Source of the DNA: Trebouxia sp. TZW2008
Taxonomy: Eukaryota; Chlorophyta; Trebouxiophyceae; Trebouxiales; Trebouxiaceae
Assembly: GCA_002118135.1 (NCBI GenBank)
Contig: BDIU01000286.1
Coordinates: 124,001 to 188,000 of the forward strand
Reading direction: 5' to 3'
DNA: 64,000 nt
Shown: positions 36,769-55,905 of the stretch, one piece after another
Layout: each line of letters starts with the position of its first letter
Numbering within the stretch: the stretch's first letter is position 1
Notes under the pieces: generated by a model
Told to the model about the DNA's origin: nothing
Databases searched by the model: none
The model's input: the letters and a program-made list of their open reading frames with translations, nothing else
Made by a program: the position numbers and the translations under genes

Positions 36769-39700
36769 TTACTTGAGCATGGGGCCTAGCCACTTCTGAG
36801 TCTCGTCAACTGACGCCTTCTTTCTGGCAGCGTAGTCCACAACCTGATCCTCTGTGATTTTGCCCACAGCAAAGTACTGACTGCACTTGCCAGCGAAGTA
36901 TAGCCCGCTGACTGCAGCAGCCGGTAGCATGGCCATGGACTCAGTTAGGCGCATGCCTGTTTCCTCCTCGATGTCCATCAGCTTCCACATGGTGGGCTTT
37001 TCTGTGTGATCGGGCTGGCTGGGGTACCCAGCTGCAGGCCGAATGCCTGCACACACAAACATACTTTTTGATGTGATGCCACCCCAGGTCCAGCATCAAA
37101 CAGAACACACCGCCCCTTGCTCATTGACCATGTTTATTACAGCTGCATGCCAGCTGTGCACCAGCATATGTCAGGAACTTGCATGTTTCACACTTAATCC
37201 CTGTGCCATCAGCTATGTACACTTTTTTGCAGGTGCATGCTAATTTCAGCAAATTGCTTGGGAATGCTTGTTGCTGGTGAAAGCTGCACCTGACAGCAAT
37301 TCCTGCCAATAGATGCAGACAAAACATTCAGGTACCACATACCTTGATATTTGACCTTCAGCAGGTCCTCTGTGCTGAAGTTCTCATCAGGTGCATATGC
37401 CCACAGCTCCTTGCGCACTATCTGATGCAGCTTCTCAGCAAACGCCTCTGCCAGGCGGTCAGCCAAGGCTTCTACCATGATATGGTTGTAGTCGTCACCC
37501 TGTCACACACAGATATGACCAGTTAAGTCAGTTTGCTTGCAAGAACAAGCTGTAGATTGTTGTCTCGACTGCAAAATACTGAAACAAGACAAAAATGGAT
37601 CATGTGGTTGAAAAAGAGCGTGAAGCGGCTTGGATCTTGAGCATGCCATGCATGACAACAAGCACAAGGCAAAAGACAGATGGTGCATGATGCTATACAG
37701 CGCACTCAATGCATGTGCTAGCATTGTCCATGCCTATTACCAGTGCTTAGCTTGACCTGCTCTTGACGCAAATGTTTGAGTGTTGTCCTTGCCCGCGACC
37801 TGTGCATGACCTTACCTGCTGCTTAAAGTGGTCAACCATTTCTTCCACTCCAAAAGATGCATTGGCAAACAAGCCAATGTAGTCTTCAACTCCACTGTCA
37901 CGTGGCGCAATGAAGTCAGAAAGGCAGAAGTAAGGAGGATCGTCTTTCTCAGCCTGCTGTCTCAATCCATGGAACCTGTGATGTCACCAAAGACTTTAGG
38001 CACTGCAATTTGCATACATGCCAAGGTGCCATGCTATTTGCGAATGAAGATGCAGCTGTGGTAGCAGCTACACATACATAGACATCTTGCATGGACTTGG
38101 CTCAGCAAGTTTGTGCAAATGAGATTGTAATGAAGTGCGCCCTTGCGTCTTTGGTAACTGACATCACAAAGCAGACTGAAGTTGCTGTACAATAGGATGC
38201 CAAGACCGGAAGGCCAGTCAAGCAAATGCCCCACCTGCACAGGACTTGCGATCTGGAGTCATCCTCATAGATCTCAATGTCGTCACCGACAGAGTTTGCT
38301 GCGTACAGACCTACAATGCCGCGCATCTGCAGCTTCTTGTGATCCACAATGTCCTGCAGTCATGCATCACACCCCTTGCACTCTGCTCTGAATGACAGAA
38401 AGAAAGCTGAAAGAGTCCTTTGCATTCAGATGCACAAAACATGACATTCTTGTGTGAATGCTGAGACTACCATTGCTATGTGTGATGCTGTTTTAAAACA
38501 GTGATTCCAAGCAAGGCACAGCATAGAGCGTGAAACTACAGAAGTTTTCATGACTAACGGACAGCTATGCTGCTGCAGAAGGGACAGCATTAGGGCTCTA
38601 GTCCTACACGGCATGGACAGTGCATCCCTACTGCATGGCGGTAATGTCAGAAAAGACACAGCTACATTGTGTGATCTCCTTACTAACGAACAGTGCATTG
38701 CTAGTGCATGGCTATACCTGTAGCATGGCTTTGGCTTCATCAAACAGCTTCTTGGCTTCAGCACCCACATTCTCATCCTTGAAAATCTTGGGGTAGCCAC
38801 GGTTAGGGTAGCGCCCCCGCAACTGCCATGTCTGCACATTAAGCCACACATTACCTGGATTGCTTTCAGCACTTATGAGCACCACACACATCTTAGCAAT
38901 GCATGCAACAGTTGAGCTTTGACAATTTCGTTCTAACAAAGGCATGGCATCAGACAACCGTACAGAACATGCCCTGACCAGATTTGATGACTGCAACCAG
39001 TTAAGACCCTTCACTGCTCTGCATGTGCAGCTGACTTGCCCCTTTTTGATATGTGCTGCAGACGGCAGCACAAACTGAGTGCAACACACTACATTGGAGG
39101 AGAGTTGACCTCAACAGTCCAGTCGAGCCGCTATCCTTCAGTACATGACAGCAATGGTCAAGCACAGCGTCAACTCAGCCTGCTTGATAACAGGATACCC
39201 AGCTCTCAATCTCAAGACAATGCAGCAAAAGCATAATAGTAGCAAGACTCCATGTTGTGTGCTTGCCTGAAAGAATGGGTTCCAGTCAATGTAGTCAATG
39301 ACATCCTTGACGTCATAGTCCTTGTACACCTTGGTGCCCAGCAGCTTGGGCTTGGTAGGCCTATTCTCCTCAGCCTTCCAGTCCACCTGCAATAGCATCA
39401 AAGCAACCTTATCAAGCAGATCCTGTAAGTCACGTGGTTGAAGTCAGGCTTTTGGACCAGATTTTCAAAAGCAAAACTGCCCTGATGCTCTTCTGGAGAG
39501 GATGTACCAGCGGCTCAACAGCTGTACAAGCCCTGATCATCTCCCAGAAAACACCATCAGCACATGCATGACAAGGATATGCACTTTTCAACAAACAAAC
39601 ACGCTGCTATTTTGGTCGACCTAGGAAGATATGGAACGACATTGTTTTGTCTGCTTTTTGCATGTTCAGCATCCTTATTGTGACGCTCAAAACAAGCCGG

Positions 39701-42510
39701 CCTTGCAGGATAGGACTTGGGCCACACACACCTAGCACATGTGCTGGACAGTGTGAACATTGGTTAGTATTTTGCGCCCGACTGATGCCAAGTTGTTGAG
39801 GGAAGCAAGACAGAGCATTCCGTCATATGAGCAAGCATGTCGTGTTGCAGCAAAGCATATGCTGCCAGTGCCACATGTCAGGCTTCCGCGCATACCTGCA
39901 GGCCCTTGTCTCTGACTTGTTCTATGGTGAGGTACTTACGGTCCTCCAAGCCAGCCATGAACTCATCACGCATCTCCTTGTACTGCTCTCTGATGTCATC
40001 AACAAAGTCTGCCTTGTTCCTGCAGAACACTCGATGAGTGGCTTCACAAAAGTACGGGTTGAGTGTATGAACACTGCAGCACAGAGGTGGATTGCATGTA
40101 CTGAGCCAAGGCTCAACCATGAAAAGCGTGCAGCAGACTTATTGACAACACAAATACATAATCTGCAGTGAAGGGTTTCTGCCCATCAATGCCAGGGCAG
40201 TCTGAGGTCAAGAGCTGATGCTGCGCAACATGTTTGCGAGAGGTGTCGCAGGACAAGACTTGAGCCACAGCAAACCTAGCATCTGAGCTAGCATGTGTAT
40301 TTTTTGTTTATGTTGAGTATCATCGTCACGAGGAAGTGCATTTGTGACTGACCTCTTGTCTAGGAGGGTTTGAGCCACAGGCACACTGCGACTGGCGTCC
40401 AACACATACACAGCTGGGCCTGAGTACTGGGGCGCAATCTTGACAGCCGTGTGCATCTTGCTGGTGGTGGCGCCACCAATGAGCAGTGGGAGCTTGAGTC
40501 CTGTCTCCTCCATCTTTTTTGCTACTGTGACCATCTCATCAAGGGAAGGTGTAATGAGGCCGCTGAGACCAATGATGTCTGCCTTGTGCTCCTCAGCAGC
40601 TGCCAGAATCTTCTCCCATGGGGTCATCACCCCAAGGTCAACAACCTGCATAACCAGGGCACGTCTGCTATAGAGCAATGCTGGCTGCATTCTATCTCTT
40701 GCAATCTGAGCTCACTCACACTGTATTTGGTGCAGTCAACTTACGATCATGGGCTGGCCCTTGCTGAAATTCGAGAGGCAAATGCAAGTGCAACAAGAAC
40801 GCTGCGCCAAAAGTGTGGCCACATTGCAAGATGCAAAGCAATCTGTGGCAGTACAATGCAGATTAGGACAGAAGCCTGTTGATGACAGCATTCAAGCCAA
40901 GCAAGCAATATCCTGAGACTCTCTTTTGCATCAATTAAGGTACACAACAGCGCATGCATCACAAGCTCACCTTGAAATTATTGCAGCCCAGCACAACGCC
41001 CACAATGTTCTTGCCAATGTCATGCACATCGCCCTTGACTGTGGCCATAATGATGACTCCAGCGTTTTCCTGACCAGAGCTGCCACTCCTGAGCTTTTCC
41101 TCCTCTATGTAGGGCAGGAGGTGCCCCACAGCCTTCTTCATCACCCTTGCTGACTTGATCACCTACATGCACCTTGTAGAGTTGCTTGGCTTGTAGACTT
41201 GCTCGTCAAGGTGAGAGCTAAGCTGTGTGCGTAGCCAGCTTACCGAGACAGGGTTGGAGCCACATGTCTCTGCTGCGGGTTCTTGATTGTATGAGTTGTC
41301 ATCCTGTGCAGCACTCAAAGCAAACATGCACAGCAGGACTGGAAGTCTGCAAGCGCTCCACAAAAATCTGGCAAGCTTGCTGCGACAGTCTTGCAAGCGC
41401 AACGTGCATGATATGAGCATCATATGAGCTATGCTCAGGCAACACTACTGCTTTCATTGCAGCAGTTGCTGGCAGGATGTGATGCCAAGGGGCTGACCTG
41501 TGGAAGGAACATCTTGCCAGAGCCAAAGAGGTCTCCAACCACATTCATGCCGTCCATGAGTGGCCCCTCAATCACCTCCAGAGGCTTCTCATAACGCCCA
41601 CTGGCCCGAGCCTCCTCTGTGTCCTATGAAACCCAAAATGCAGGGCTCAAGACAAACATTTTGTGTATGTTTGACTGTCTCGAACTGGCTTTTCTGGGTG
41701 AAATAGTTCCAACTGTAGGGTCTTAGAATTCTCAAATTCTAGACCCTGAGATTGCCTAGAATGCAAGAAACTGATGATTGCATTGCAGGGCACAAGCAGC
41801 GCCTGTTGTAATAAGTGCTCTCTGCTAGGCGCATGGTACAAACACACCAGTCACAGAATCTGGAACATGCAGCATTAGCAAGTCTCACATGCTGATACTA
41901 AACGTTTCAAAATCTGACTGAAAACAATGACCATGCAGCCCGCTGCAGTTGGGCGCGCAACGCTGACAGCAGCACTGCCTACAAGTCACAGTACAGTGAT
42001 ACCTTTATGCCTGCAAGACTGGCATTCAGATCTCAAGTACTCAATACTTGTGGCTGATTGAGTTCATGCTGTTACTTGCAGACAGATATAAGATAGCTTA
42101 TGGCAACCTTGGCCATTGAATCACGATTCATTGACTCGTACTATCATCCAGTCATCCAACCATACGTGCACAATTCATTCACTTGACATCGATTACCGGC
42201 TGACAATCAATAGCACAACGACCAGCACGACACCTACCCTGACAGCAAACTCATCAATACCCTTGACAAGGGCGTGCTCTAGCCTCTTCTCAACAGGCAG
42301 ATCCCTCCATGAGGATCCCTCCTTGCCGCCTGCAGCCTTAGCGCCTGCTGCCGCACCCTTCTTCTTAACATCTGTGGGCTTGCACTTGGGGTCCAGAGTG
42401 GCTGCGTATTCCAGCATTCGCTCTGTGGAATTCTCACAGCGATTCAGCAGGACGTCCTCAATCATCTCCAGCAGCTCCTTGTCAATCTTGCTGTACTCAT
42501 CAGCAAGCAC
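36769..42510 (-). other. MetH cobalamin-binding and reactivation region (single copy)
   Basis: Exons 42510-42238, 41623-41498, 41162-40971, 40645-40353, 40019-39896, 39386-39267 (GC donor), 38831-38718, 38353-38235, 37975-37816, 37499-37343 and 37046-36769. Cap: [18 protein letters not shown]. Cobalamin fold: [19 protein letters not shown] with axial His, [15 protein letters not shown], and [13 protein letters not shown]. Reactivation (AdoMet) domain: [49 protein letters not shown], and [17 protein letters not shown] near the end. All normal landmarks are in place. Confidence 0.92.
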
Positions 42511-43918
42511 CTGCACAGACAGTCATGATGCACACACAGGCTGCATGCTTACTGCATTGTCTCAATTGTTGTCAAGCACTGCCTAGCATTGCAGAATCAA
42601 GTTGGCAAACAGAGACAGCGTGACATGGGCCAGACGACCTGACTCATGATAGACACACAGGCTACATGCTTACTTCATTAGCTCAACTGTTGTCAAGCAC
42701 TGCCTAGCATTGCAAAGCTGAGATGGCAAACAGAGACACCATGACACAGGCCAGACAGCATCACGCAGTTAGCGGCCTGAAAGTGCCAAAGAGTGACTGA
42801 GCAATGCAAAGAGGAAGTGACTTGCAGACAGCAAATATGGTGATGGTTTAATGGGTGTTCATCTCTTGAGGCAAGCGGCATATCTTGCAGCACGTTGCTG
42901 TGTAGCACCTGTGCAGCATTGACAATGCCCATGTCCATGCCAGCCTTGCAGGCGTGATGGAGGAAGGCGCTGTGGAAGCCGCGCCTTACTGCTTCATTGC
43001 CTCTGAAGCTGAAGGCAATGTTGGACACGCCGCCGCTGATCTTGCAACCTGGGCACAAGCGCTTAATCTCCCTAGTCGCCCGGATGAAGTCCACGGCGTA
43101 GTTGTTGTGCTCTGCCATGCCGGTGCCCACGGTCAGGATGTTTGGGTCAAAGATGATGTCCTGAGGGTCAAAGCCCACATCCTCTACCAAGATCCTGAAG
43201 GCTCTGGTGCAAATACGCACCTTGTCCTCAGCTGTAGCAGCCTGCACGGTTTACAATAGGCATTTGTGTCTCATCTTGCACTGCAGCTTTGATGCAATTG
43301 TGTACAGCAGATTGACACTGTAGACAATGCATGCATTCTGGCCATAACATATGGCACGACATGGGCTCAGGTACACTTGCTGCCATCAAGTACATCAGTG
43401 TTGTGCTATACTTGCATGCTCATTGCAGATGGGTTTTGATCAATGACTTGCAGTCAAACCCTATGAAGGCCAGGATCAACATCATGGAGCTTGTGTGAAG
43501 GCATCAGCTCAAGCGATCGCCAGACATTGCAGAAATTGTGTCATGTAACAGCCACTGCTCACCTGACCCTTTTCATCAAAAGCCATGACGACCACTGCTG
43601 CGCCATGGCGCTTGACGGTGGCAGCATGGTCCCGGAAGGCCTGCTCCCCCTCCTTCATGCTGATGCTGTTCACGATGCACTTGCCCTGGCAGCACTTCAA
43701 GCCTGCCTCCACAATGAAGAACTTGGAGCTGTCAATCATGAAGGGCACCTTGCTGACCTCAGGATCTGAGACCAGCAGGTTCACAAATTTGGTCATGGCA
43801 GGCACCCCGTCTATCAAGCCATCATCCATGTTGATGTCCAGCACATGGGCGCCTTGCTCCACCTGCCATCAGCATTGCTTATTTCACGCCGGTTTTGCTG
43901 AGCAGCCTTGAAGATGCT

Positions 43919-43953
<35 letters not shown>

Positions 43954-46900
43954 ACAGCCACAGTTACAGCAACAGGAACAGCAATAGCAGCAGCCATGGC
44001 AAAAGCAGCAGCAGCAGCAGCAATGACAGCAACAGCAGCTGATAGCACCAATGTTTTGCAAAACCAATACCCACATGAGGCTGCTGGCATGCAATCTAGC
44101 CCTGAAGCTGTTGGGTTACACAACTGCTGCATGCAATAGGCTGCAGACAAGATAGTATAGCTGTACCTGCTTGACAGCAATGGCAGCTGCTTTGTCATAA
44201 TTGCCGTCCACAATGGCCTTCTTGTAGATGCTGGAGCCGGCCACATTGCACCTCTCCCCAATGTTGATGAAAGTGCTGCGCATGTTGTCAAGCTTGGGAT
44301 CATAGTTCAAGGGCTCCAAGCCACTCAGGCGCATTCTAGACTCTGTAGAATGCCGCTGTCTTGGCTCATACTTCTCAGCCATTGCCTTGATGGCAGCGAT
44401 GTGCTCAGGCCCAGTGCCACAGCAGCCGCCAATGCAGTTCACCAGGCGCTCCTCACAGAAAGGCCTGATCTCTTCGGCCATCTCTCCACCTTTCTGATCA
44501 TACCCACCCATGGCATTGGGTAGGCCAGCATTGGGGTAGCAGAAGACATAGCAGTCAGCACATTTGCTGAGGTTGTCTATGTAGGGCTTCATGTCTGCTG
44601 CTCCCAGAGCGCAGTTCAGTCCAACTGCCATGGGATGTGAATGGCAGATGCTGTTCCAGAAGGCCTCATTGGTCTGTCCGCTGAGCGTGCGTCCTGAGTT
44701 GTCAACAATGGTGCCGCTGATAAAGACTGGCACTCGCAATTGCTTGTGCTCAAAGAAGCGCTCAAGAGCATAGATGGCTGCTTTGGAATTTAGCGTGTCA
44801 AAGATGGTTTCTACCAAGAACAAGTCGACGCCACCATCATACAGTGCCTCTATCTGCTCATAGTAAGCCTCCTCAACTGCGTCATAGGTGGTGCCTCTGA
44901 AGGCAGGGTTCTCCACAGATGGCGAAACGCTGAGGGTTTTGCTGGTGGGTCCCACGGCTCCTGCCACAAACTTGCGACTGCCTGGGTGCTGCTCCATCCA
45001 TTCCTTGGTGCATTGCTTGGCCAGCTTGGCAGCCTCCACATTGATCAGCCTCACATCCTCGGCATTGTCCAGCTGGTAATCAGCCTGCAAGACCCATTCA
45101 TGGCATTGAGCAGCATGCAATGTACATCAGGGGCATGGCGTGAAGAGGGAGTTTAACAGCCGTGGAGAAAGGCATCCGAAGACGATTGCTGGGTCGTGTG
45201 ACACAAACTGCTTGTTCCCTCGCAAGACAGATTGTTGTTCAATAAAGAGGGAAGGTGACCAGGCGCTGCAAGATGTGCCAGAAGTCATGATTGCAAACAG
45301 TCATGTACAGGGGAGCGTAGGCAATCCATCAATGGCATTCCTGCTCTGTAGGCACAGTAATGGCAACATGGGAACTTGACCAGAGAGTGCATGCTTGCCT
45401 GGGATGTGCGGGTGCCATTGAAAGTGTTGGTTTCGAGGATGTCAGCTCCAGCTTGCAGGAATTCATTATGGATGTCTGCAATGACGTCAGGGCGGGTGAT
45501 GACCAGCAGGTCATTGTTGCCCCTCAGCTCATGGGGGTGGTCCTTATACCGGTCACCCCTGAAGTCCTCCTCAGCAAGCCTGCAATCAACAGAAAACAGT
45601 GCTACTGCTGCTGCTGCTGCTGCTGATGCTGATGCTGATGCTGATGCTGATGCTGATGCTGATGCTGATGCTGATGCTGATGCTGATGCCCTTTGAAGCC
45701 CAACATGGTGATGCAGGACAAGCTTAGAGGCACAGACCTCAACTCTGGAAAAGACCAAAATTTGATGCACCCAAATGCTGTCTGCACAGTGAGGCATCTT
45801 GCTAGACAACTGTCTGTACTTGACAGATTTGAATGAGTAGAGGACTGATTTGTTTTGGCATAGGATGAGACAGACTTACTTGAGCAGTTGGCCGCTTTTG
45901 TATTGACCTTGCAAGTTCCTGAGAACTCACTGGCAAAGCATATGAGGTAAGGATGACAATGGTGATCACTTTCCAAGCATGGTGCTGCATATGCTTTTTT
46001 GCATCTATGGTTTGAGATCCTTGGTTGTGCTATGTACAGCCAACAGGCTTGGTGTGTAAGGGCTGGGCATATGGGATGCGTCCCAAAGAGTAACAAGTAA
46101 GACTGCATGCTCACTTGTGTTTCTGGATGGAGGTTCCCATGGCGCCATCAATGTAGACAATGCGCTGGTCCATGAGCTCCTGCAGCTGCCCAAACGCCTC
46201 AGACTTCTGCAGAGGGTCCACCCAGGTCTTGTAATGGGGCACAGCAGGGAGGTCAGCGGGGGGCGCCAGGGGGTCCATGCCTGAGGGGATGGGGTTCAGC
46301 TTGGGAGGGAGTGTGTCTGTCTGAAGCTTCTTGACAGCTGTGGGCTTGCACTTTGGCTCCAGGGTCGCTGCATACTCCAGCATGCGCTCGGTGGAGTTCT
46401 CACAGCGGTTCAGCAGCACATCCTCAATGAACTCTAGCAGCTCCTTGTCAAGCTTGCTGTACTCATCAGCTAAGACCTACAGGGCACCAGAACCTCTGTC
46501 AGCAACACATGATATGCAGCTGATGTTACAACAGCAGAGCACCCAGCAGCAGGATGTTTGGATGAACAGGTGCCTTGTCAACATCACTTTGCAGCAGCAG
46601 TGTGTGGCCTGAGTAAAGCATGGTGCATGAGGTCGTGCTCTGAGTGCAACATGCACCTGCTCTGACAGCAATTGAGGTGTTCACCATTCCCAGCAAAACT
46701 GGCTCGCATAGCAAATCTTGACTGAGCAGTCATGCTACAGGTCGGGTCCACAGGGATAAGGGATACCACTCTGCTTCATGAGAGCTGGACTGGCAGCATT
46801 CAGATTAGCATTTTGCAACATTGCACTGCATGAGTGGCCAAACTTGAAGTGCTGCTCAGAGGTGTCTGCAACATTCTCAGCTTGGCACATCCAAGCTCAT

Positions 46901-49900
46901 GTATCCGGATGTATGTACACATGTACATACAGCAGCATACATGCACACCAATACTGTGTAGAGCCTGTTGGTGTCAAAGCAACTGGAGCACACCTGAGCA
47001 GCATTGACAATGCCCATGTCCATGCCAGCCTTGCAGGCATGGTGCAGGAAGGCACTGTGGAAGCCGCGCCTAACGGCCTCGTTGCCCCTGAAGCTGAAGG
47101 CAATGTTGGACACGCCGCCGCTGATCTTGCACCCCGGGCACAAGCGCTTGATCTCCCGGGTTGCCCGGATGAAGTCCACAGCATAGTTGTTGTGCTCTGC
47201 CATGCCGGTGCCCACAGTCAGGATGTTGGGGTCAAAGATGATGTCCTGGGGGTCGAAGCCCACATCCTCTACCAAGATCCTGAAGGCTCTGGTGCAGATG
47301 CGCACCTTGTCATCAGCTGTGGCCGCCTGTACAGCAGAAAGCTGCTGAGCATGCTTTGCACATGGTCTGCATGGAATAATGCATGCCATTTCTGACCATA
47401 GAGAGACATCTGCAGCTTGCTCAGCCGAGCAATCTTGGGCAGCTCAAATGTCATGTCCTGCACTGTGCTCTTGCTGTGCCAAACACCGTTGCTTGAGCAG
47501 CACACGGGTGAAGCATGACATTGAAGCATTTTGTACAGCGTACAAAGCTTTTGCCAATGTTGAGTTGTGAGGTCAAATGAGACTGCAGGAACAGCTGAGA
47601 AGCTGGAATTACCTGTCCCTCTTCATCAAAGGCCATGACGACCACCGCTGCCCCATGGCGCTTGACAGTGGCGGCATGGTCCCGGAAGGCCTGTTCCCCC
47701 TCCTTCATGCTGATGCTGTTCACGATGCACTTGCCCTGGCAGCACTTCAAGCCAGCCTCCACAATGAAAAATTTGGAGCTGTCGATCATGAAGGGCACCT
47801 TGCTGACCTCAGGGTCTGACACCAGCAGGTTGACAAACTTGGTCATGGCGGGCACACCATCTATCAGGCCATCATCCATGTTGATGTCCAGCACATGGGC
47901 GCCTTGCTCCACCTGACATTAGGTCATGAGAGAGTGTGACTCATAATCCACAGATAGTATCTGGCTTGTACAGAATGTTTTGGGCTGAATGTGCAGATTG
48001 CAATATGTACATTGTCATACAGAAAGCTTGCCCGTGAAGGCAGGACTGCTAATCCCTGCAAAGCATCCTTCTGCCTGCAATGCTGCTTCAGCACAACTCA
48101 ATATTGCAACCAGCTCGCATGCGATTTGATGTAATCCCTTCAAAAGCGTCATCGCAACAGGATACTTTGAGCCCTGTTCCAATGCTGTTCCCGAAGAGAT
48201 AACGTTTGACCATCCTGGGAGCTTGTGCAATCATACTTCCTGACTGCTCCAGTATGGGCGTGTCTGAAATCAGCTTGCAGGGATGCAGCATAGACAGCAC
48301 ATTCCAAACATAGCAAAACAGCCCCGAAATGACAGCAGTACCTCTCTTGACATGCAGCCAGGACATCACGCCGTGCCAAACTGCTTCAGGTCAGTTTCTG
48401 CTGCTCAAAGGCAGGAAGATGACAATGTACTGTGACAGACAGGTCTTACTTGCTTGACAGCAATGGCAGCTGCCTTGTCATAGTTGCCGTCCACAATGGC
48501 CTTCTTGTAGATGCTGGAGCCTGCCACATTGCACCTCTCCCCAATGTTGATGAATGTGCTGCGCATGTCAGCCCCGTTGGGGCTGTAGTTCAACGGCTCA
48601 AGGCCGCTCAGCCGCATCTTGGAGTCCACCTCATGCTGCTTTCTGGGCTCATACTTCTCAGCCATAGCCTTGATGGCCGCAATGTGCTCAGGCCCAGTGC
48701 CACAACAGCCGCCAATGCAGTTCACCAGACGCTCTTCACAGAAGGGCCTAATCTCTTCGGCCATCTCTCCACCCTTCTGATCATACCCACCCATGGCATT
48801 GGGCAGGCCCGCATTGGGGTAGCAGAAGACATAGCAGTCAGAACACTTGCTGAGATTCTCAATGTAGGGCTTCATGTCTGCTGCTCCCAGAGCGCAGTTC
48901 AACCCAACTGCCATGGGATGTGAATGGCAGATGCTGTTCCAGAATGCCTCATTGGTCTGTCCACTGAGCGTACGTCCTGAGTTGTCTACAATGGTACCGC
49001 TGATAAACACAGGTAGGCGCAGCTGTTTCTCTTGAAAGAATCTTTCCAAGGCGTAGATGGCTGCTTTGGAATTGAGGGTGTCAAAGATGGTCTCAACAAG
49101 AAACAGATCAACACCACCATCGTAAAGTGCCTCTATCTGCTCATAGTAAGCCTCCTCAACTGCGTCGTAGGTGGTGCCTCTGAAGGCAGGGTTCTCCACA
49201 GATGGTGACACACTAAGGGTTTTGCTGGTAGGTCCCACAGCTCCCGCAACAAACTTGCGGCTGCCTGGGTGCTGCTCCATCCATTCCTTGGTGCATTGCT
49301 TGGCCAGCTTGGCAGCCTCCACATTGATCAGCCTCACATCCTCAGCATTGTCCAGCTGATAGTCAGCCTGTGGTCCGGGCAGTCACATACAGCTGGTCAA
49401 CGTCATGTCAGCACCCAGAGCACGCACTGTACAACATTCAGCTGCCAATCTGTTAGAAGCGAGGGCCACAACACGCAAGCAAGATTTGCACGATGCTTGC
49501 ATGCCCATCTAGCATAGACTAGACAAACAACATCTTGCTAGCTGTTGCAGCATGTCAGGAGGAGATGCATGCCGGGCATGTGAGTCAATATTGCACATCC
49601 CAAAATGGACTCTACTACATTGTCTGTGTGGCTCTCCTGTCGGGTCTATAAGACAGTCATCATGCAGTCCAGCATTGAAGTGCAGCTGCATGCTGTTGAC
49701 GAGAAGCAGGGCTTGCCTGTGATGTGCGGGTGCCATTGAAGGTGTTGGTTTCCAGGATGTCAGCGCCGGCCTGCAGGAACTCATTGTGGATGTCTGCAAT
49801 GACGTCAGGACGGGTGATGACCAGCAGGTCATTGTTGCCCCTCAGCTCATGGGGATGGTCCTTGTACCTGTCACCTCTGAAGTCCTCTTCAGCAAGCCTG

Positions 49901-52900
49901 TAACAAAAACGCACTTTCCCAGAAAGCCTGAACAGGACCAGCACCTTATCTAGACAACAAAAGCTGCATATTCAAGCTAGTGCATAGTGGTATGCAAGGT
50001 GATGCCTGTACCTCGTGCATCTGCCATATGAATTGCACGCAATTGTGTCAAGGACAATGTCTGACCTTGTGACAACCAGCTGACGCAATAACACATTCAT
50101 AGATGTGCAAATTGACAACTGTGCAAAGGAACGGGCAAAGCGCATCAGGGCAATATGCATGAAACAATTATTGCAGCTCATGTGAGGCTGACTTGAAACC
50201 ACAGTGTAAGCATGACAATTAGCTTTATGTACACAGACGCAACCTGAGCATCTGGCAAGTTGAGCAGCAGAAGAGAGCTGATAGGCTGGAATCATTCAGC
50301 TTACTTGTGCTTCTGGATGGAGGTGCCCATGGCGCCATCAATGTAGACAATGCGCTGGTCCATGAGCTCCTGCAGCTGCCCAAATGCCTCAGATTTCTTC
50401 AGGGGGTCCACCCAGGCTTTGTACCCAGGCACAGCAGGGGGGTCGGCAGGGGGTGCCAGGGGGTCCATGCCTGAGGGGATGGGGTTGAGCCTGGGGGTGA
50501 TTGAGGGGGGTGAGCCAGCATCCTCATTCACAAGCTTTTTCAGGTCTGTGGGCTTGCTCTTGGGGTCTAGGGTGGCAGCATACTCCAGCATGCGCTCTGT
50601 GCTGTCCTCACGCCTGTTGAGCAGTACATCCTCCACATAGCCCATCAGCTCCTTGTTGACCTTGTTGTACACATCAGCCTTGACCTGTGTACAACACTTG
50701 CCTGGTAAGAAGCTTGCTCGACATCACTGTGGCAATGCTGACTGATGCAAAATGCTGTTCATGGAGCAAACAGGCACACAAACAATTCTGCCATACAAGC
50801 ATGACCACGTGGCAAGTGTGCACATGATGAATGACAGCGCTACCCAGAAGACCCATGAGGTGTAAGAAGACAAGGGCAGCTGTGATGCTGCAGTGCCTTG
50901 CAATTCACCTGAGCAGCATTGACAATGCCCATGTCCATGCCAGCCTTGCACGCGTGATGCAGGAAGGCGCTGTGGAAGGCCCGTCTGACGGGCTCATTTC
51001 CTCTGAATGAGAAGGCAATGTTGGACACGCCACCGCTGATCTTGCACCCTGGGCACTTCTCCTTGATCTCAGCTGTTGCGTTGATGAAATCCACTGCATA
51101 GTTGTTGTGCTCTGCCATGCCGGTACCCACAGTCAGGATGTTGGGGTCAAAGATGATGTCCTGGGGGTCAAAGCCCACCTCATTCACCAGGATCTTGTAG
51201 GCCCTGGTGCAGATGCGCACCTTGTCTGCTGCAGTAGCAGCCTGCACAGCCAGCATTGACTAGTTCAGGCTTCTTCCTAAAGTAGCACAAAATAGTACTA
51301 TCTATGTGTGACTGAACAAGTGGCTCACGCACACACCCACACGCCCAGGAATGCACTCACTCATGCGTCACTCTACAAGTCACATATCAACCTGATGTAA
51401 TATCAGCACTACATGCACCATGAACAATCTTCAAGGATGCATGCAATCTTGTGCAGTCACCAAGCAGCTATGGTTCAGCTTGTGCATACAGTTGATGCCC
51501 CATTTTTGCATCAGCGTCGCATTCATTGTGTGCTACAATGCACAGGGACTGTAGACTGCACCTGGCCCTGTTCGTCAAAGGCCATGACAACCACTGCTGC
51601 ACCATGGCGCTTGACAGTGGCAGCATGGTCCCGGAAGGCCTGCTCCCCCTCCTTCATGCTGATGCTGTTCACAATGCACTTGCCCTGGCAGCACTTCAAG
51701 CCTGCCTCCACAATGAAGAACTTGGAGCTGTCAATCATGAAGGGCACCTTGCTGACCTCGGGGTCTGACACCAGCAAGTTCACAAACTTGGTCATGGCAG
51801 GTACTCCGTCTATCAGGCCATCATCCATGTTGATGTCCAACACATCCGCACCTTGTTCTACCTGCAGAATCCATGCTGCCCTTCCCCATATGCACTTGAA
51901 AATCCCTGTCCAGCTGGACAGTGCATATCAATCATTGCTCTCAATTGTGTTGTGCTCTTTGCGTCACATGTATGGCAGACACATACGCACACAACATGCA
52001 TGACACATCCACTGCTCAAATCTCACATGCACACATGAACAACTTTGCATTTGATGTGATGCAAGACACAGATTGCATGAGCATGTATGCAAGCTTAAGA
52101 GACCTGTGCACAGCAAAGCACGAGTCCATGAAAGATCAGGGACACAGCTGGAGTATCTCTCACCTGTTTGACAGCAATTGCAGCTGCCTTGTCATAGTTG
52201 CCGTCCACAATGGCCTTCTTGTAGATGCTGGAGCCTGCCACATTACACCTCTCTCCGATGTTGATGAAAGTGCTGCGCATGTGGTCCTGGTTGGGCTGAT
52301 AGTTGAGTGGCTCAAGTCCACTGAGCCTCATCAATGGCTGAACTGAGTGGCGCTGCCTGGGGTCATACTTCTCGGCCATAGCCTTGATGGCAGCGATGTG
52401 CTCAGGCCCAGTGCCACAGCAGCCGCCAATGGCATTGACAAGCTGCTCCTCACAAAATGGGCGAATCTCCTCAGCCATTGCTGAGCCTTTCTGGTCGTAG
52501 CCTCCCATTGCATTGGGTAGGCCAGCATTGGGATAGCAGAAGACGAAGCAGTTGGCACATTTGCTGAGATTCTCAACATAGGGTTTCATGTCTGCTGCTC
52601 CCAGAGCGCAGTTCAGCCCAACTGCCATGGGATGTGCATGGCAGATGCTGTTCCAGAATGCCTCGTTGGTCTGTCCGCTGAGGGTGCGTCCTGAGTTGTC
52701 TACAATGGTGCCGCTGATGAACACAGGAAGCCGCAGCTGTTTCTCCTCAAAGAAGCGCTCGAGCGCATGTATTGCTGCTTTGGAGTTCAGCGTGTCAAAG
52801 ATTGTCTCCACCAGGAATAGGTCAACGCCACCCTCGTACAGCGCCTCAATCTGCTCAAAGTACGCTTCTTCAACAGCATCATACGTGGTGCCTCTGAAGG

Positions 52901-54000
52901 CAGGGTTCTCTACAGACGGTGACACGCTGAGGGTTTTGCTGGTTGGACCTACTGCTCCTGCAACAAACTTGTGGCTGCCTGGGTGCTGGTCCATCCATTC
53001 CTTGGTGCAGCGCTTGGCCAGCTTGGCAGCCTCCACATTGATCAGCCTCACATCCTCAGCATTGTCCAGCTGATAATCAGCCTGTAGCAAAGAGCAAGGA
53101 TACGTCACATGATTTGATCACTCAAGGCATATCCGTCAAACTAACAGCATGCTGAGGTAACCAGGCCTCACGGTGTCTTTGGTAATTCAGATGATGACTG
53201 TGGTTGCCAAACTGTGCAGTGAGCCAAGCAAGACTTTGGAACATAGTGCTTGATGTGTGGACATGGACATTTCACAGCACAAGGGCTCAGACTGAAGTTT
53301 TGCTGGATCTCACACCTGGGATGTGCGGGTGCCGTTGAAGGTGTTTGTTTCCAGAATGTCAGCTCCAGCTTGCAGGAACTCATTGTGAATGTCTGCGATG
53401 ACGTCAGGGCGGGTGATGACCAGCAGATCATTGTTGCCCCTCAGCTCATGATGGTGATCCTTATACCTATCACCCCTGAAATCCTCTTCTGTCAACCTAC
53501 AGACAGTTGGCATGTCCATATAAGGCGTGTGAGACAGAGTTGCTGTCGAGTTGTGATGCATACAGTAATGTTGCCTGTGCTCACAACCACTGCTGACTGC
53601 TCAAGCAGTACAGCATTTCCCTGCTTGTTACCTGTGTTTTTGAATTGAGGTGCCCATAGCACCATCAATGTAGATGATGCGCTCCTCCATAAGCTTTGTA
53701 AGCTGAGCAAAGGCAGCAGACTTCTTGAGAGGGTCTTGCCATTTGAATGTAGTTGCATCAGCATCATGGGCCTCATCATCCTCTGCAATTTCAAAATTTG
53801 CAATGATCAGAGGTGAGATGATGATTTCAGCAAAAACCGGCTGAGCGAAGTGTTGCGTGTGGCTGCTGTACAAAAGATACCGGTCCATGCAGCAGCAAGC
53901 AGTCATGCTGACCTATAGCTTCAGGTTCAGCAACATTTGCTATGCTTGTCTCAGCTCTGCTGTATTGACTATCACTTCGGCTGCGAAGCCACCGGCGTGC
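36769..54000 (-). CDS. METH: Cobalamin-dependent methionine synthase with three tandem catalytic modules
   Basis: MetH moves a methyl group from methyl-tetrahydrofolate through cobalamin to homocysteine. A usual MetH (about 1,230 residues) has one homocysteine domain, one folate domain, one cobalamin region and one reactivation domain. Here 27 minus-strand exons close in phase to 2,710 codons plus stop, and the homocysteine-folate half occurs three times. Order: entry exons 54000-53913 and 53782-53632; module 1 (53496-50909); linker exon 50684-50305; module 2 (49897-46994); linker exon 46476-46115; module 3 (45579-42909); cap hinge 42510-42238; cobalamin and reactivation exons 41623-36769. 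Each module keeps the zinc-Cys motifs VGLNCALG and GGCCGTGP and the folate motifs [27 protein letters not shown] and [15 protein letters not shown]. The cobalamin part has DVHDIGKN with the axial His. No stop or frameshift was found in any module. Donors at 49716, 45398 and 39266 are GC. The 5' end is open: translation could begin at 53906 or in a hydrophobic exon at 54291-54097. Confidence 0.9.
42909..45579 (-). other. MetH module 3: homocysteine and folate domains
   Basis: Exons 45579-45399 (181 nt, GC donor), 45084-44167 (918), 43862-43563 (300) and 43241-42909 (333). This copy feeds directly into the genuine cap hinge exon 42510-42238, which continues to [20 protein letters not shown] instead of looping back to another homocysteine domain. 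Confidence 0.9.
43919..43956. repeat. CAG/GCA trinucleotide repeat in a metH intron
   Basis: About twelve AGC units in the intron between the 918- and 300-nt exons of module 3, followed by more imperfect CAG-rich sequence to about 44040. Confidence 0.85.
45610..45690. repeat. Hexanucleotide (GATGCT)n microsatellite in a metH intron
   Basis: About twelve GATGCT units (plus-strand reading) in the intron between linker exon 46476-46115 and module 3. Frames across it give Asp-Ala or His-Gln repeats, which are shadows. Confidence 0.95.
46115..46476 (-). other. Linker exon joining module 2 to module 3
   Basis: A 362-nt exon with the same plan as 50684-50305: cap start ([19 protein letters not shown]), the same [16 protein letters not shown] linker, then homocysteine-domain start. 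It is 18 nt shorter than the first linker exon. Confidence 0.9.
46994..49897 (-). other. MetH module 2: homocysteine and folate domains
   Basis: Exons 49897-49717 (181 nt, GC donor), 49367-48450 (918), 47912-47613 (300) and 47326-46994 (333): the same lengths and phases as module 1. Very close to module 3 at protein level, while its introns differ in length and sequence. Confidence 0.9.
50305..50684 (-). other. Linker exon joining module 1 to module 2
   Basis: A single 380-nt exon. Its start encodes the beginning of the cobalamin cap ([20 protein letters not shown], then [13 protein letters not shown]). Without a break it passes through a Pro-rich linker ([18 protein letters not shown]) into the start of a new homocysteine domain ([20 protein letters not shown]). 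It ends phase 2 exactly like the gene's own entry exon 53782-53632. Confidence 0.9.
50909..53496 (-). other. MetH module 1: homocysteine and folate domains
   Basis: Exons 53496-53316 (181 nt), 53081-52164 (918), 51861-51562 (300) and 51241-50909 (333). This is the most divergent copy: it has [11 protein letters not shown] instead of [25 protein letters not shown] instead of [14 protein letters not shown], and NAIGGCC instead of NCIGGCC. All zinc-binding Cys are kept. Its first intron uses a GT donor (CAG/GTGTGA). Confidence 0.9.
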
Positions 54001-54096: not shown

Positions 54097-54291
54097 CAGC
54101 AACAGAAAGCCAACGGGGATCAAAATCGGCGACCCGAGGAATGCTGCTAGAGCAACAGGCGGTAGAAAAAACACGGCAAAGATGCACACAGCGATGACCG
54201 CCAGTATGGGATGCTCCATAGCGGTCTGTCGAGAATACACCAGCAGGTCGAAGAGAGACGTCATCTTCGCTTTCCAGCGGCGTGGTCGCAA
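54097..54291 (-). CDS. Possible hydrophobic first exon of metH or separate small membrane protein
   Basis: A 65-codon minus-strand frame, with a second Met at 54264, contains about 40 strongly hydrophobic residues (HPILAVIAVCIFAVFFLPP and onward). Its GTACGG donor after 54097 (phase 0) would join the acceptor at 54003-54001 (phase 0), giving exon 54000-53913 and then metH in frame across a 102-bp intron. That would give methionine synthase a membrane-inserting leader, which is not known for the family. Unspliced, the frame stops at 54022 and would be an 89-residue two-helix protein. The sequence alone does not decide. Confidence 0.4.
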
Positions 54292-54834
54292 TCAAGCAGC
54301 CTTTCACATCTGGTCAACCTGTCAACATTCAAACACCAGATGCTTGACAATTAGCCTGAGGCAGATTGCGCACAGGCTGCAAAGCCTAGCGTTCAACCTG
54401 GCGTTCAACCATGCATGCCACGCACATGGGTTGCATGCGAAGCACGTGAGATGAAACGCCGTGCGTTCACGTCCTGCGTCAAAAGGCTCCGTCGTATCCT
54501 GCGACTGACATGAGCTTCCGGTCTTTCCGAGACAACTGCAGCGCAGGTATTGGACAGGGGCAGTCAAAAGTCTACAGACAGTTGAATTGGCACTGTTGAT
54601 TGCTCTGGAAGAGCAAGACAGCAGCTTGCTTCGTGTCGTCAGCGTCGACGACCACGCGGATCAGGGGTCAACCAGTCTTGTATCGCCCGCTCTGCTGAAG
54701 TGCACAGAGTCCCGTACGGTGCGTGCTCACACAGCAAGTGCTGTGAGCGCAGAAAACCGGTATGCTGCTCGTTGCCTGTGCCATGTTCCGGTTCGTAGCG
54801 TTCTTGGACAGATCCGGCATCTCTTGCTGCAGTC
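54292..54834. promoter_or_regulatory. Putative bidirectional promoter, metH / UBA-PARP
   Basis: 543 bp between the divergent first ATGs. No coding signal; no obvious TATA box. Confidence 0.4.
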
Positions 54835-55905
54835 ATGGTCTCGTCTTCAACAGTCATGACCTGGGATCTGCGACTGGGATTTGTGGAATCGTCTAGGCAT
54901 CGAGTATCGTACGAAGCTGTTGATCTTGGCAACTCTGACGGCACCGGTTCAAGTGCTGAAGTGGACACTGCTCAGCTAGCCGCGTACTGTGAGGCTGTGA
55001 AACGGCTGACAGCTCAAGGAATTGACGAAGACCACGCTGCACAAGTTCTGCGGCGGTGTGGCGGCGATATAGATGCTGCTGAGATTTATGTAGGCGTCTG
55101 CTCCTCAGTTGGTCTATTCAGCATGCTGGACGAGGATGACTCAAGCGAATCATGGTGCTGGGAAGGTGCAGCAGGCCACCTGTACTTTGCCAACACCCTG
55201 CAAGAGGCTGCGCAAAGCATGCGCAAATCAAGCACAGACAGTGAACTTTGTACTGTTGCCAGCGTAATAGAATCTACTGCAAGTGCAGTAACAGAGGAAA
55301 TGCAACAAGAAGTGCAGCGTTTGGAAGCTGCACGGCAGCAGACTCACAAGGCTAGCCTCAGCGGTCTTTCTGCTGAGGCAATCCTGGGGCGTATTGAGTT
55401 TGGGTCTGGCATACCTAGGTCAAGGATCACTGCTGTGCATGAGGTGCTCAATCCTGTGCTATGGAGGTTATACAGCGCCCAAAAGCAATCTATGGCTGAG
55501 CCAAAGGAGACTTGGCTCTTTCATGGCTCAGGTCCTGAGAACATTGCACACATCTGCCTTGAGGGCTTTGACCTTGCTTTGGCCAACCCCAAAGGATCGT
55601 ATGGCGCTGGTGTCTACTTTGCCACAGACAGCTCAACCAGCCACAGCTACAGCAGGAAAAACCCCCTCAAGTCAATGGACGACATGGCCCCTAAGTATGA
55701 CAACCAGTCAGAAGTGCTTGCCAGTGCAAGGGCCAATGGCCTGCACACCATGTTGTTGTGCACAGTACTGCTAGGGCATGCAGGCACTTACAACAGCGGC
55801 AGCAAAGCTCCAGCTGGTTGTGACTCAGTCGCGTCGTCATCAATGAGTGTTGTGTACAAGGCTGATCAGGCATACCCTCGCTATGTGGTGTTCTTCAGCT
55901 CATGA
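54835..55905 (+). CDS. UBA-PARP protein, probable mono-ADP-ribosyltransferase
   Basis: An intronless frame of 356 residues. Residues about 46-87 form a UBA-like ubiquitin-binding domain (LTAQGIDEDHAAQVLRRCGG, then DIDAAEIYVG). Residues about 180-356 are a PARP catalytic domain: ITAVHEVLNPVLWRLY, the NAD-binding His in ETWLFHGSG (His230), the Tyr in GSYGAGVYFATDSS (Tyr261), the sheet MLLCTVLLGHAGTY, and the closing SMSVVYKADQAYPRYVVFF. The third catalytic position, Glu in polymer-forming PARPs, aligns with Met337, so the enzyme would transfer single ADP-ribose units if active. No WWE, BRCT or zinc-finger domain is present. Being intronless among intron-rich genes is notable. TGTAA follows the stop by about 70 nt. 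Confidence 0.85.
   Translation: MVSSSTVMTWDLRLGFVESSRHRVSYEAVDLGNSDGTGSSAEVDTAQLAAYCEAVKRLTAQGIDEDHAAQVLRRCGGDIDAAEIYVGVCSSVGLFSMLDEDDSSESWCWEGAAGHLYFANTLQEAAQSMRKSSTDSELCTVASVIESTASAVTEEMQQEVQRLEAARQQTHKASLSGLSAEAILGRIEFGSGIPRSRITAVHEVLNPVLWRLYSAQKQSMAEPKETWLFHGSGPENIAHICLEGFDLALANPKGSYGAGVYFATDSSTSHSYSRKNPLKSMDDMAPKYDNQSEVLASARANGLHTMLLCTVLLGHAGTYNSGSKAPAGCDSVASSSMSVVYKADQAYPRYVVFFSS

Follow-up and report, generated by a model that had tools for sequence, protein, structure and literature searches.

Methionine synthase (MetH) is a main user of vitamin B12 in algae and the textbook example of an enzyme whose domains are shuffled around a single cofactor. A gene within 64,000 nucleotides (nt) of the green alga Trebouxia sp. 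TZW2008 (assembly GCA_002118135.1, contig BDIU01000286.1, positions 124,001 to 188,000; hereafter the window) raises the question of whether a single cobalamin domain may be served by several substrate-binding modules. The splice-site model and Pfam matches outline a MetH with a hydrophobic N-terminus, three tandem units composed of a homocysteine (Hcy) and a folate (Fol) domain, and then a single Cap, a single cobalamin (Cob) and a single reactivation (Act) domain, so that the canonical stoichiometry of one Hcy-Fol unit per cobalamin domain gives way to three units per Cob. The best overall explanation, which we consider probable, is a (Hcy-Fol)3 MetH with a shared Cob domain, whose modules form an old array that has been kept both alike and functional.

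Rebuilt from its splice sites, the gene lies on the minus strand between positions 54264 and 36769 and comprises 28 exons, whose open reading frame runs for 2,766 codons before the stop. Each of the 27 introns is of the GT-AG or GC-AG type, with GC-AG in 3 of them (after 49717 in exon M2b, 45399 in M3b and 39267 in C6); modules 2 and 3 have their GC donor at the same place, where module 1 has GT. A first-pass annotation of this stretch had proposed three exon sets of identical lengths and phases, each retaining zinc-Cys and folate-site motifs, followed by one cobalamin and reactivation region, with 27 exons summing to a whole number of codons, and the rebuilt model bears this out. Exons b, c, d and e measure 181, 918, 300 and 333 nt in every module, with start phases of 2, 0, 0 and 0, and the 27 exons within 54000-36769 total 8,133 nt, or 2,710 codons plus stop. 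The 5′ limit that it had set at 54000 is probably wrong: we added an upstream exon (54264-54097) because it provides an in-frame ATG and a leader resembling other green-algal MetH N-termini. The resulting features, with protein positions in amino acids (aa), are as follows.

54097..54264, minus strand: exon N0, start codon and N-terminal hydrophobic segment (aa 1-56; in-frame ATG, 168 nt, donor gtacgg)
53913..54000, minus strand: exon N1, leader (aa 57-86; continuous frame)
50909..53782, minus strand: module 1 (Hcy1-Fol1; splice-site model, Pfam, alignment to 4ccz), exons 53782-53632, 53496-53316 (181 nt), 53081-52164 (918 nt), 51861-51562 (300 nt) and 51241-50909 (333 nt)
50305..50684, minus strand: linker exon M2a (380 nt), one open exon with the Fol1 end, a Pro-rich linker and the Hcy2 start
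46994..49897, minus strand: remainder of module 2, exons 49897-49717 (181 nt), 49367-48450 (918 nt), 47912-47613 (300 nt) and 47326-46994 (333 nt)
46115..46476, minus strand: linker exon M3a (362 nt), one open exon with the Fol2 end, a linker and the Hcy3 start
42909..45579, minus strand: remainder of module 3, exons 45579-45399 (181 nt), 45084-44167 (918 nt), 43862-43563 (300 nt) and 43241-42909 (333 nt)
42238..42510, minus strand: exon C1, Fol3 end, Fol-Cap linker and Cap start (Cap at aa 2189-2263)
40353..41623, minus strand: remaining Cap and Cob domain, exons 41623-41498, 41162-40971 (GDVHDIG motif) and 40645-40353 (B12-binding at aa 2284-2378)
36769..40019, minus strand: Act (AdoMet) domain (Met_synt_B12 at aa 2476-2751, 403 bits), exons 40019-39896, 39386-39267, 38831-38718, 38353-38235, 37975-37816, 37499-37343 and 37046-36769, the last ending in the stop TAA

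Domain matches and catalytic motifs support the assignment of each unit. The Hcy domain (PF02574, S-methyl_trans) is matched in three stretches at 890 bits and the Fol domain (PF00809, Pterin_bind), which follows each Hcy domain, in three stretches at 574 bits, and chance matching is excluded because of these scores. Cap (PF02607, B12-binding_2; 86.6 bits), Cob (PF02310, B12-binding; 68.7 bits) and Act (PF02965) occur once each, and exon C3 reads GDVHDIG, matching the DxHxxG pattern that we take to be the cobalamin-binding motif. Module 1 aligns with the Hcy-Fol structure of human MTR (4ccz) over 639 residues at 792 bits. Against a motif reference of 27 rows (26 bacterial and the human sequence), which yields 186 invariant columns, the window modules each mismatch 16 columns, the columns being shared and the letters differing at two. 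All three modules retain the zinc Cys triad and, more widely, 13 of the 13 zinc and folate motif residues that we inspected, residues to which we presume the usual roles. The window protein is predicted to transfer the methyl group of methyltetrahydrofolate (CH3-THF) to homocysteine.

Whether these units belong to a single protein is addressed by the linker exons. In M2a and M3a the end of one Fol domain and the start of the next Hcy domain are fused within single exons that contain no stop, the linkers carry 13 prolines in 59 residues (380-nt exon) and 11 in 53 (362-nt exon), and the M2a type of linker recurs in other green algae. Transcripts that begin or end in the linkers would instead yield several separate proteins, with Hcy-Fol units acting in trans; split MetH does exist in bacteria, in the account of PMC7311316, and 23 of 255 models of related proteins have no Cob match (e.g. 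P0129, P0130, P0136), a set in which cut contigs and cut models are not sorted out. We nonetheless judge this very improbable, given that the linker exons are open and fuse both ends, that open reading frames (ORFs) from MMETSP span two modules plus Cob and that genome searches for Cap and Act turned up no additional copy. Three genes instead of one was likewise rejected, on the stop-free linker exons and the same Cap and Act result. The earlier proposal, a single gene whose three modules look catalytic and precede one cobalamin module, is upheld by the single-exon linkers and by fused relatives, P0108 and P0111 among them, and it is strongly supported that one gene would encode a single polypeptide of about 300 kDa.

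An assembler may also have copied one module. Repeats are a known hazard, and two sets of relatives, 2144 and 1439 aa long, resemble one organism with and without a module; the hazard, however, is that repeats collapse, not that they are invented. Exons b-e of the window modules differ by ~7-15% in DNA sequence, and none of 15 comparisons between corresponding introns gave a blastn match at E 1e-3; these diverged exons and unrelated introns therefore argue that the modules are not an assembly error, an option that the first-pass annotation had named as refuting its own reading and that we regard as exceedingly improbable. Over exons b-e (577 codons), synonymous divergence (dS) amounts to 0.675 between modules 1 and 2, 0.648 between 1 and 3 and 0.483 between 2 and 3, with ratios of nonsynonymous to synonymous divergence (dN/dS) of 0.073, 0.073 and 0.043, respectively, and the copies are therefore taken to be old and each under purifying selection.

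Among the best candidates from searches of the 68.5-Mb genome for Hcy, Fol, Cap and Act, no second MetH was found. Act and Cap (B12-binding_2) matches were found at this locus only, Hcy matches comprise the three sets at this locus and one other gene on contig 237, and Pterin_bind matches comprise this locus and one gene on contig 15, presumably a dihydropteroate synthase. An Rfam search over 33000-57000 returned no match. The head-to-head neighbour of the gene is an ORF on the plus strand (54799-55902) with a PARP catalytic domain (61 bits).

The first-pass annotation knew of no described MetH with this arrangement and suggested looking for the fusion in related algal genomes; the fusion is there, with two to four modules in many algae, and the suggestion of a unique arrangement is not supported, a doubling having also been printed for Phaeodactylum tricornutum (PMC4523565). 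Relatives were gathered in three protein searches, the first admitting ~1,520-4,840 aa and two further ones applying other length limits, each listing its best 120 matches (of 364, of 7,995 and of 7,997), so that counts do not represent prevalence; species and group names are source labels or our reading of them. Under a strict layout test, requiring the right order and at least 70% of its model for each domain, 181 of 255 proteins pass and 74 are left out, with n = 1, 2, 3 and 4 Hcy-Fol modules in 67, 97, 15 and 2 proteins and the window protein at n = 3. A looser count (Cob and Act above 20% of their models, Cap optional) yields 66, 102, 16 and 2, with 69 of 255 irregular. The passing proteins belong to green and streptophyte algae, diatoms and their relatives, and dinoflagellates.

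Domain mapping assigns two modules to Chlorella vulgaris, Parachlorella, Micractinium, Nannochloris, Pedinophyceae sp., Mesostigma, Chlorokybus, the diatoms Nitzschia inconspicua and Epithemia, the thraustochytrids Mucochytrium and Hondaea, and Symbiodinium. Three are found in Trebouxia C0009, Myrmecia, Chlorella sorokiniana, Botryococcus, Volvox carteri, Chlamydomonas incerta and Chrysophaeum, as well as in Prorocentrum, whose model stops in Cob, and four in Bryopsis and Haematococcus. A single module is present in the diatoms Cyclotella, Skeletonema and Mediolabrus, in Closterium, and in models of Chlorella variabilis, Auxenochlorella and Helicosporidium that are either genuine or collapsed; more generally, a share of the n = 1 models may reflect repeats that were collapsed. 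Two complete Cob domains occur in none of the proteins (P0065, from Sanguina, has a 23% piece beside a full one), and two-module ORFs derived from transcriptomes include P0108 and P0111 (MMETSP) and P0157 (TSA-style name). As a bacterial control, 43 of 46 MetH loci have exactly one of each domain, the other three are without at least one domain and none has two. The arrangement is, on these predicted layouts, recurrent in algae and not unique to the window.

Two side observations concern individual relatives. Nine metagenome proteins of 2144 aa (P0039, P0041, P0042, P0044-P0048, P0050; n = 2) and seven of 1439 aa (P0142-P0145, P0149, P0152, P0153; n = 1) differ by 705 aa, the length of one module, and probably represent a single organism whose repeat was retained in some assemblies and collapsed in others, or else a true copy-number polymorphism. 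The streptophyte proteins P0063 (Mesostigma) and P0181 (Closterium; aa 127-199) carry an AMPK1_CBM glycogen-binding domain before Hcy; P0063 has two such stretches, one of them in the inter-module linker, and one lies at aa ~814-879.

How the modules have been maintained can be read from their resemblance within and between species. Within proteins the modules are mostly alike, with at least 95% identity in 140 of 171 module pairs, whereas the ten pairs of species that were compared span ~79 to 97.5%. In a tree of 122 modules from 54 chosen proteins of 184, which Polarella and C. reinhardtii entered with two modules each, their third unit being incomplete, the modules of a protein are monophyletic in 40 of 46 multi-module proteins, the six exceptions being the window protein, Chlamydomonas eustigma, P0013, C. 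reinhardtii, P0157 and P0176. An approximately unbiased (AU) test on 13 of the 14 three-module green proteins (Volvox africanus was left out) rejected the grouping of all first modules together (p 7e-69) but did not reject a grouping by species (p 0.21). Recent duplication, independent in each species, would be compatible with this tree shape, but several signals indicate greater age: the first modules of C. eustigma and P0013 group together (support 0.99), as do those of P0157 and P0176 (1.0), and at 13 sites (abb|abb) module 1 differs from modules 2 and 3 alike in both the window and Trebouxia C0009, a pattern indicative of a duplication that predates the split of these two algae. At 15 further sites (aaa|bbb) all three modules carry a species-specific residue, which is indicative of homogenisation since that split. 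Taken together, these sequence patterns indicate that the modules evolve in concert and that their fusion antedates at least some of the species splits.

Concerted evolution is also what the chief rival of a shared-cobalamin model would produce, namely a neutral tandem array to which unequal crossing-over adds units that conversion then preserves, with only the module adjacent to Cap-Cob at work. Such an array accords with copy numbers that vary within Volvox (three in V. carteri and V. africanus, two in V. reticuliferus) and Chlorella (three in C. sorokiniana, two in C. vulgaris, one in C. variabilis), with modules 2 and 3 resembling each other most in 13 of the 14 three-module green proteins, and with a few upstream modules that look damaged (the zinc Cys of Polarella module 2, the Fol barrel of Bryopsis and Ostreobium module 1). 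In the models of the latter two (P0001 and P0012, respectively) module 1 is without 33-35 Fol-barrel residues, including an Asp and an Asn of the folate site, and represents either a shared decayed module or a shared gene-model error. A neutral array should nevertheless shrink as easily as it grows, yet the zinc Cys triad is present in all 272 complete modules of 125 multi-module proteins and, as aligned, in 434 of 442 Hcy segments when incomplete modules and later matches are added. Moreover, the first modules of three-module proteins retain the reference-invariant residues about as well as the last ones, with means of 16.2 and 15.0 mismatches of 186. Most modules thus look catalytic at the level of their residues, and we hold the neutral array to be rather unlikely, if a serious contender.

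A division of labour, in which the extra modules would have a different methyl donor, acceptor or regulatory role, could instead explain why module 1 is divergent in several algae (78.7% identity in P0013, 83.5% in Botryococcus), as well as the Fol1 barrel missing from the Bryopsis and Ostreobium models. It also draws on P0157 and P0176, two alveolate-like, two-module proteins in which the folate-site Asn is changed in module 1 and the modules are 69% identical; a functional split of the modules is possible in these two proteins. The window modules, however, mismatch the same 16 of 186 columns and keep all inspected catalytic motifs, and for the window we consider a division of labour distinctly unlikely.

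The explanation that we favour, a functional array sharing one Cob domain, suggests a simple way of working. In the account of PMC10567725, the Hcy and Fol domains travel together as a single rigid body, and the linker between Fol and Cap is mobile; each Hcy-Fol pair would thus be the body that canonical MetH uses for its two half-reactions, and the algal repeat unit would be that same body, added upstream of the mobile linker. The modules would hang on Pro-rich, presumably flexible linkers, and in the simplest working model one Cap-Cob-Act tail could reach any of the three bodies, the single Cob docking in turn to take a methyl group from any loaded Fol site and deliver it to any loaded Hcy site, while Act would repair oxidised cobalamin as usual. 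Judging by the sequence pattern, gene conversion or unequal crossing-over keeps the modules alike within a species, and purifying selection keeps them functional. We infer from the fit with this anatomy that one cobalamin may be served by several sites. More tentatively, and with somewhat less than even confidence, we propose as the benefit that more methionine could be made per B12 when substrate loading or release at the Hcy and Fol sites limits the rate.

Several points weigh against this explanation. Eight of the 442 Hcy segments are without the full Cys triad as aligned (the Polarella middle module, the truncated P0171 and single segments of P0184, P0196, P0203, P0204, P0218 and P0230), sequence or model error and real loss not being separated among them; in Polarella (P0076) an Arg at aa 965 replaces the first zinc Cys of the middle module (GINRALG), modules 1 and 3 keeping theirs. 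Conservation is in any case no proof that each module works, because gene conversion could keep idle modules intact. Organisms with one module (Cyclotella, Skeletonema, Closterium, perhaps Auxenochlorella) establish that the extra modules are not required, and MetE-type matches on contig 215 of the same alga imply that it need not depend on B12. The window protein is predicted from genomic sequence, and its relatives are mostly predicted gene models, in which repeats can collapse or become over-homogenised during assembly.

The origin of the array was approached through the linkers, using a profile trained on core greens, the window included, and calibrated on 290 shuffles (best score 7.8). 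The profile beats all shuffles on every one of the 13 other green linkers (10.9-64.7) and of the 2 streptophyte linkers (13.5, 38.0), whereas each of the 15 stramenopile and alveolate linkers falls short (best 0.4), these groups having linkers of their own of ~110-121 and ~90-116 aa, respectively. This likeness fits one old green fusion, with separate fusions elsewhere. Speaking against such a use of the profile, 53 of 145 N-terminal leaders of at least 15 aa also score above all shuffles, some of them strongly (UWO241 62.6, C. vulgaris 43.5, C. sorokiniana 39.0, P0025 38.7, Bryopsis 30.2), and the lowest-scoring green linkers (10.9, 12.3) stay within the range of leaders from similar proteins (9.6-12.8). 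Some of these leaders are cut linkers with part of the preceding Fol domain (P0074, P0125, P0131, P0151), whereas others have the look of genuine N-termini. The linker thus resembles a leader in its second half, and similar linkers would also result if fusion had happened repeatedly at equivalent points. In view of these leader matches, the shared green linker carries less weight as evidence for one old fusion, and a single deep green origin appears plausible and weakly supported.

The hydrophobic N-terminus is a further trait with a taxonomic pattern. The segment in exon N0 has a mean Kyte-Doolittle hydropathy of 2.78 over 21 residues at aa 20, and a phmmer comparison of aa 1-86 with 109 leaders of other MetH gave a best E of 2e-5, followed by 7e-4 and 2e-3. 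At a threshold of our own choice (1.6 over 21 residues), 63 of the 110 proteins whose leader spans 60 residues or more have a stretch at or above it there; outside the leader, 18 of 180 proteins reach 1.6. The hydrophobic leaders that can be named are all green, while some greens (Parachlorella, Mesostigma) have hydrophilic ones, as do the named diatoms, thraustochytrids, pelagophytes and dinoflagellates. A P-x-L-I-P-like motif is often seen in the green-algal N-terminal segment (54264-54097, P0006, P0007, P0028, P0033, P0068 and others). The segment may be a membrane anchor or targeting hairpin, and the enzyme may be membrane-tethered or organelle-targeted. A broader scenario, in which greens since before the chlorophyte-streptophyte split would have had a membrane-tethered array of two to four interchangeable Hcy-Fol units around one cobalamin, with concerted evolution holding the units equal, with selection holding n > 1 for the higher methionine yield from each scarce B12, and with other algal lineages arriving at it separately with unrelated linkers, we regard as doubtful.

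The number of substrate modules per cofactor thus varies naturally from one to four, apparently an experiment run by nature, and natural variants make it testable which of substrate loading, docking or cobalamin chemistry limits turnover. Module number becomes a trait to compare with B12 dependence in phytoplankton, and the repeats pose the testable question of whether they get more work from each scarce B12 molecule; the idea of a B12 benefit is a guess that would fit the scarcity of the vitamin for algae. The gene is also a remarkable example of repeats that evolve in concert within a single coding sequence. Reports of module number may often be wrong, because some deposited models appear to collapse or split such genes.

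Compared with known systems, the window protein has the same five domains in the same order as canonical MetH/MTR (human 4ccz and 9ssp, and the thermophilic enzyme as presented in PMC10567725), sharing its zinc and folate motifs and aligning through module 1 with the human Hcy-Fol pair over the extent given above. Where canonical MetH has one Hcy-Fol unit, the window has three, plus a hydrophobic N-terminus and two Pro-rich inter-module linkers. A published counterpart is METH of Phaeodactylum tricornutum, reported in 2015 with a doubled MetH and pterin-binding region, supported by expressed sequence tags and described as a probable mutation-duplication for which experimental proof was called for (PMC4523565). 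As in the window, the Hcy-Fol region is repeated in one reading frame, but there are two units and the organism is a diatom, and the diatom and other stramenopile linkers examined (~110-121 aa) do not match the green profile. The section of that account on the doubling mentions neither a green-algal array nor n = 3 or 4 nor concerted evolution, and in the open PubMed Central (PMC) literature searched we met no account of a green-algal form with three or four modules, of how widely it occurs or of its concerted evolution. The split MetH of Burkholderia, Bacteroides and Phaeobacter, as portrayed in PMC7311316, has MetH modules that work as separable units, divided there over several proteins, whereas in the window they are multiplied within one. 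The gene encodes a form of a known enzyme, with partial prior notice, rather than a new kind of system.

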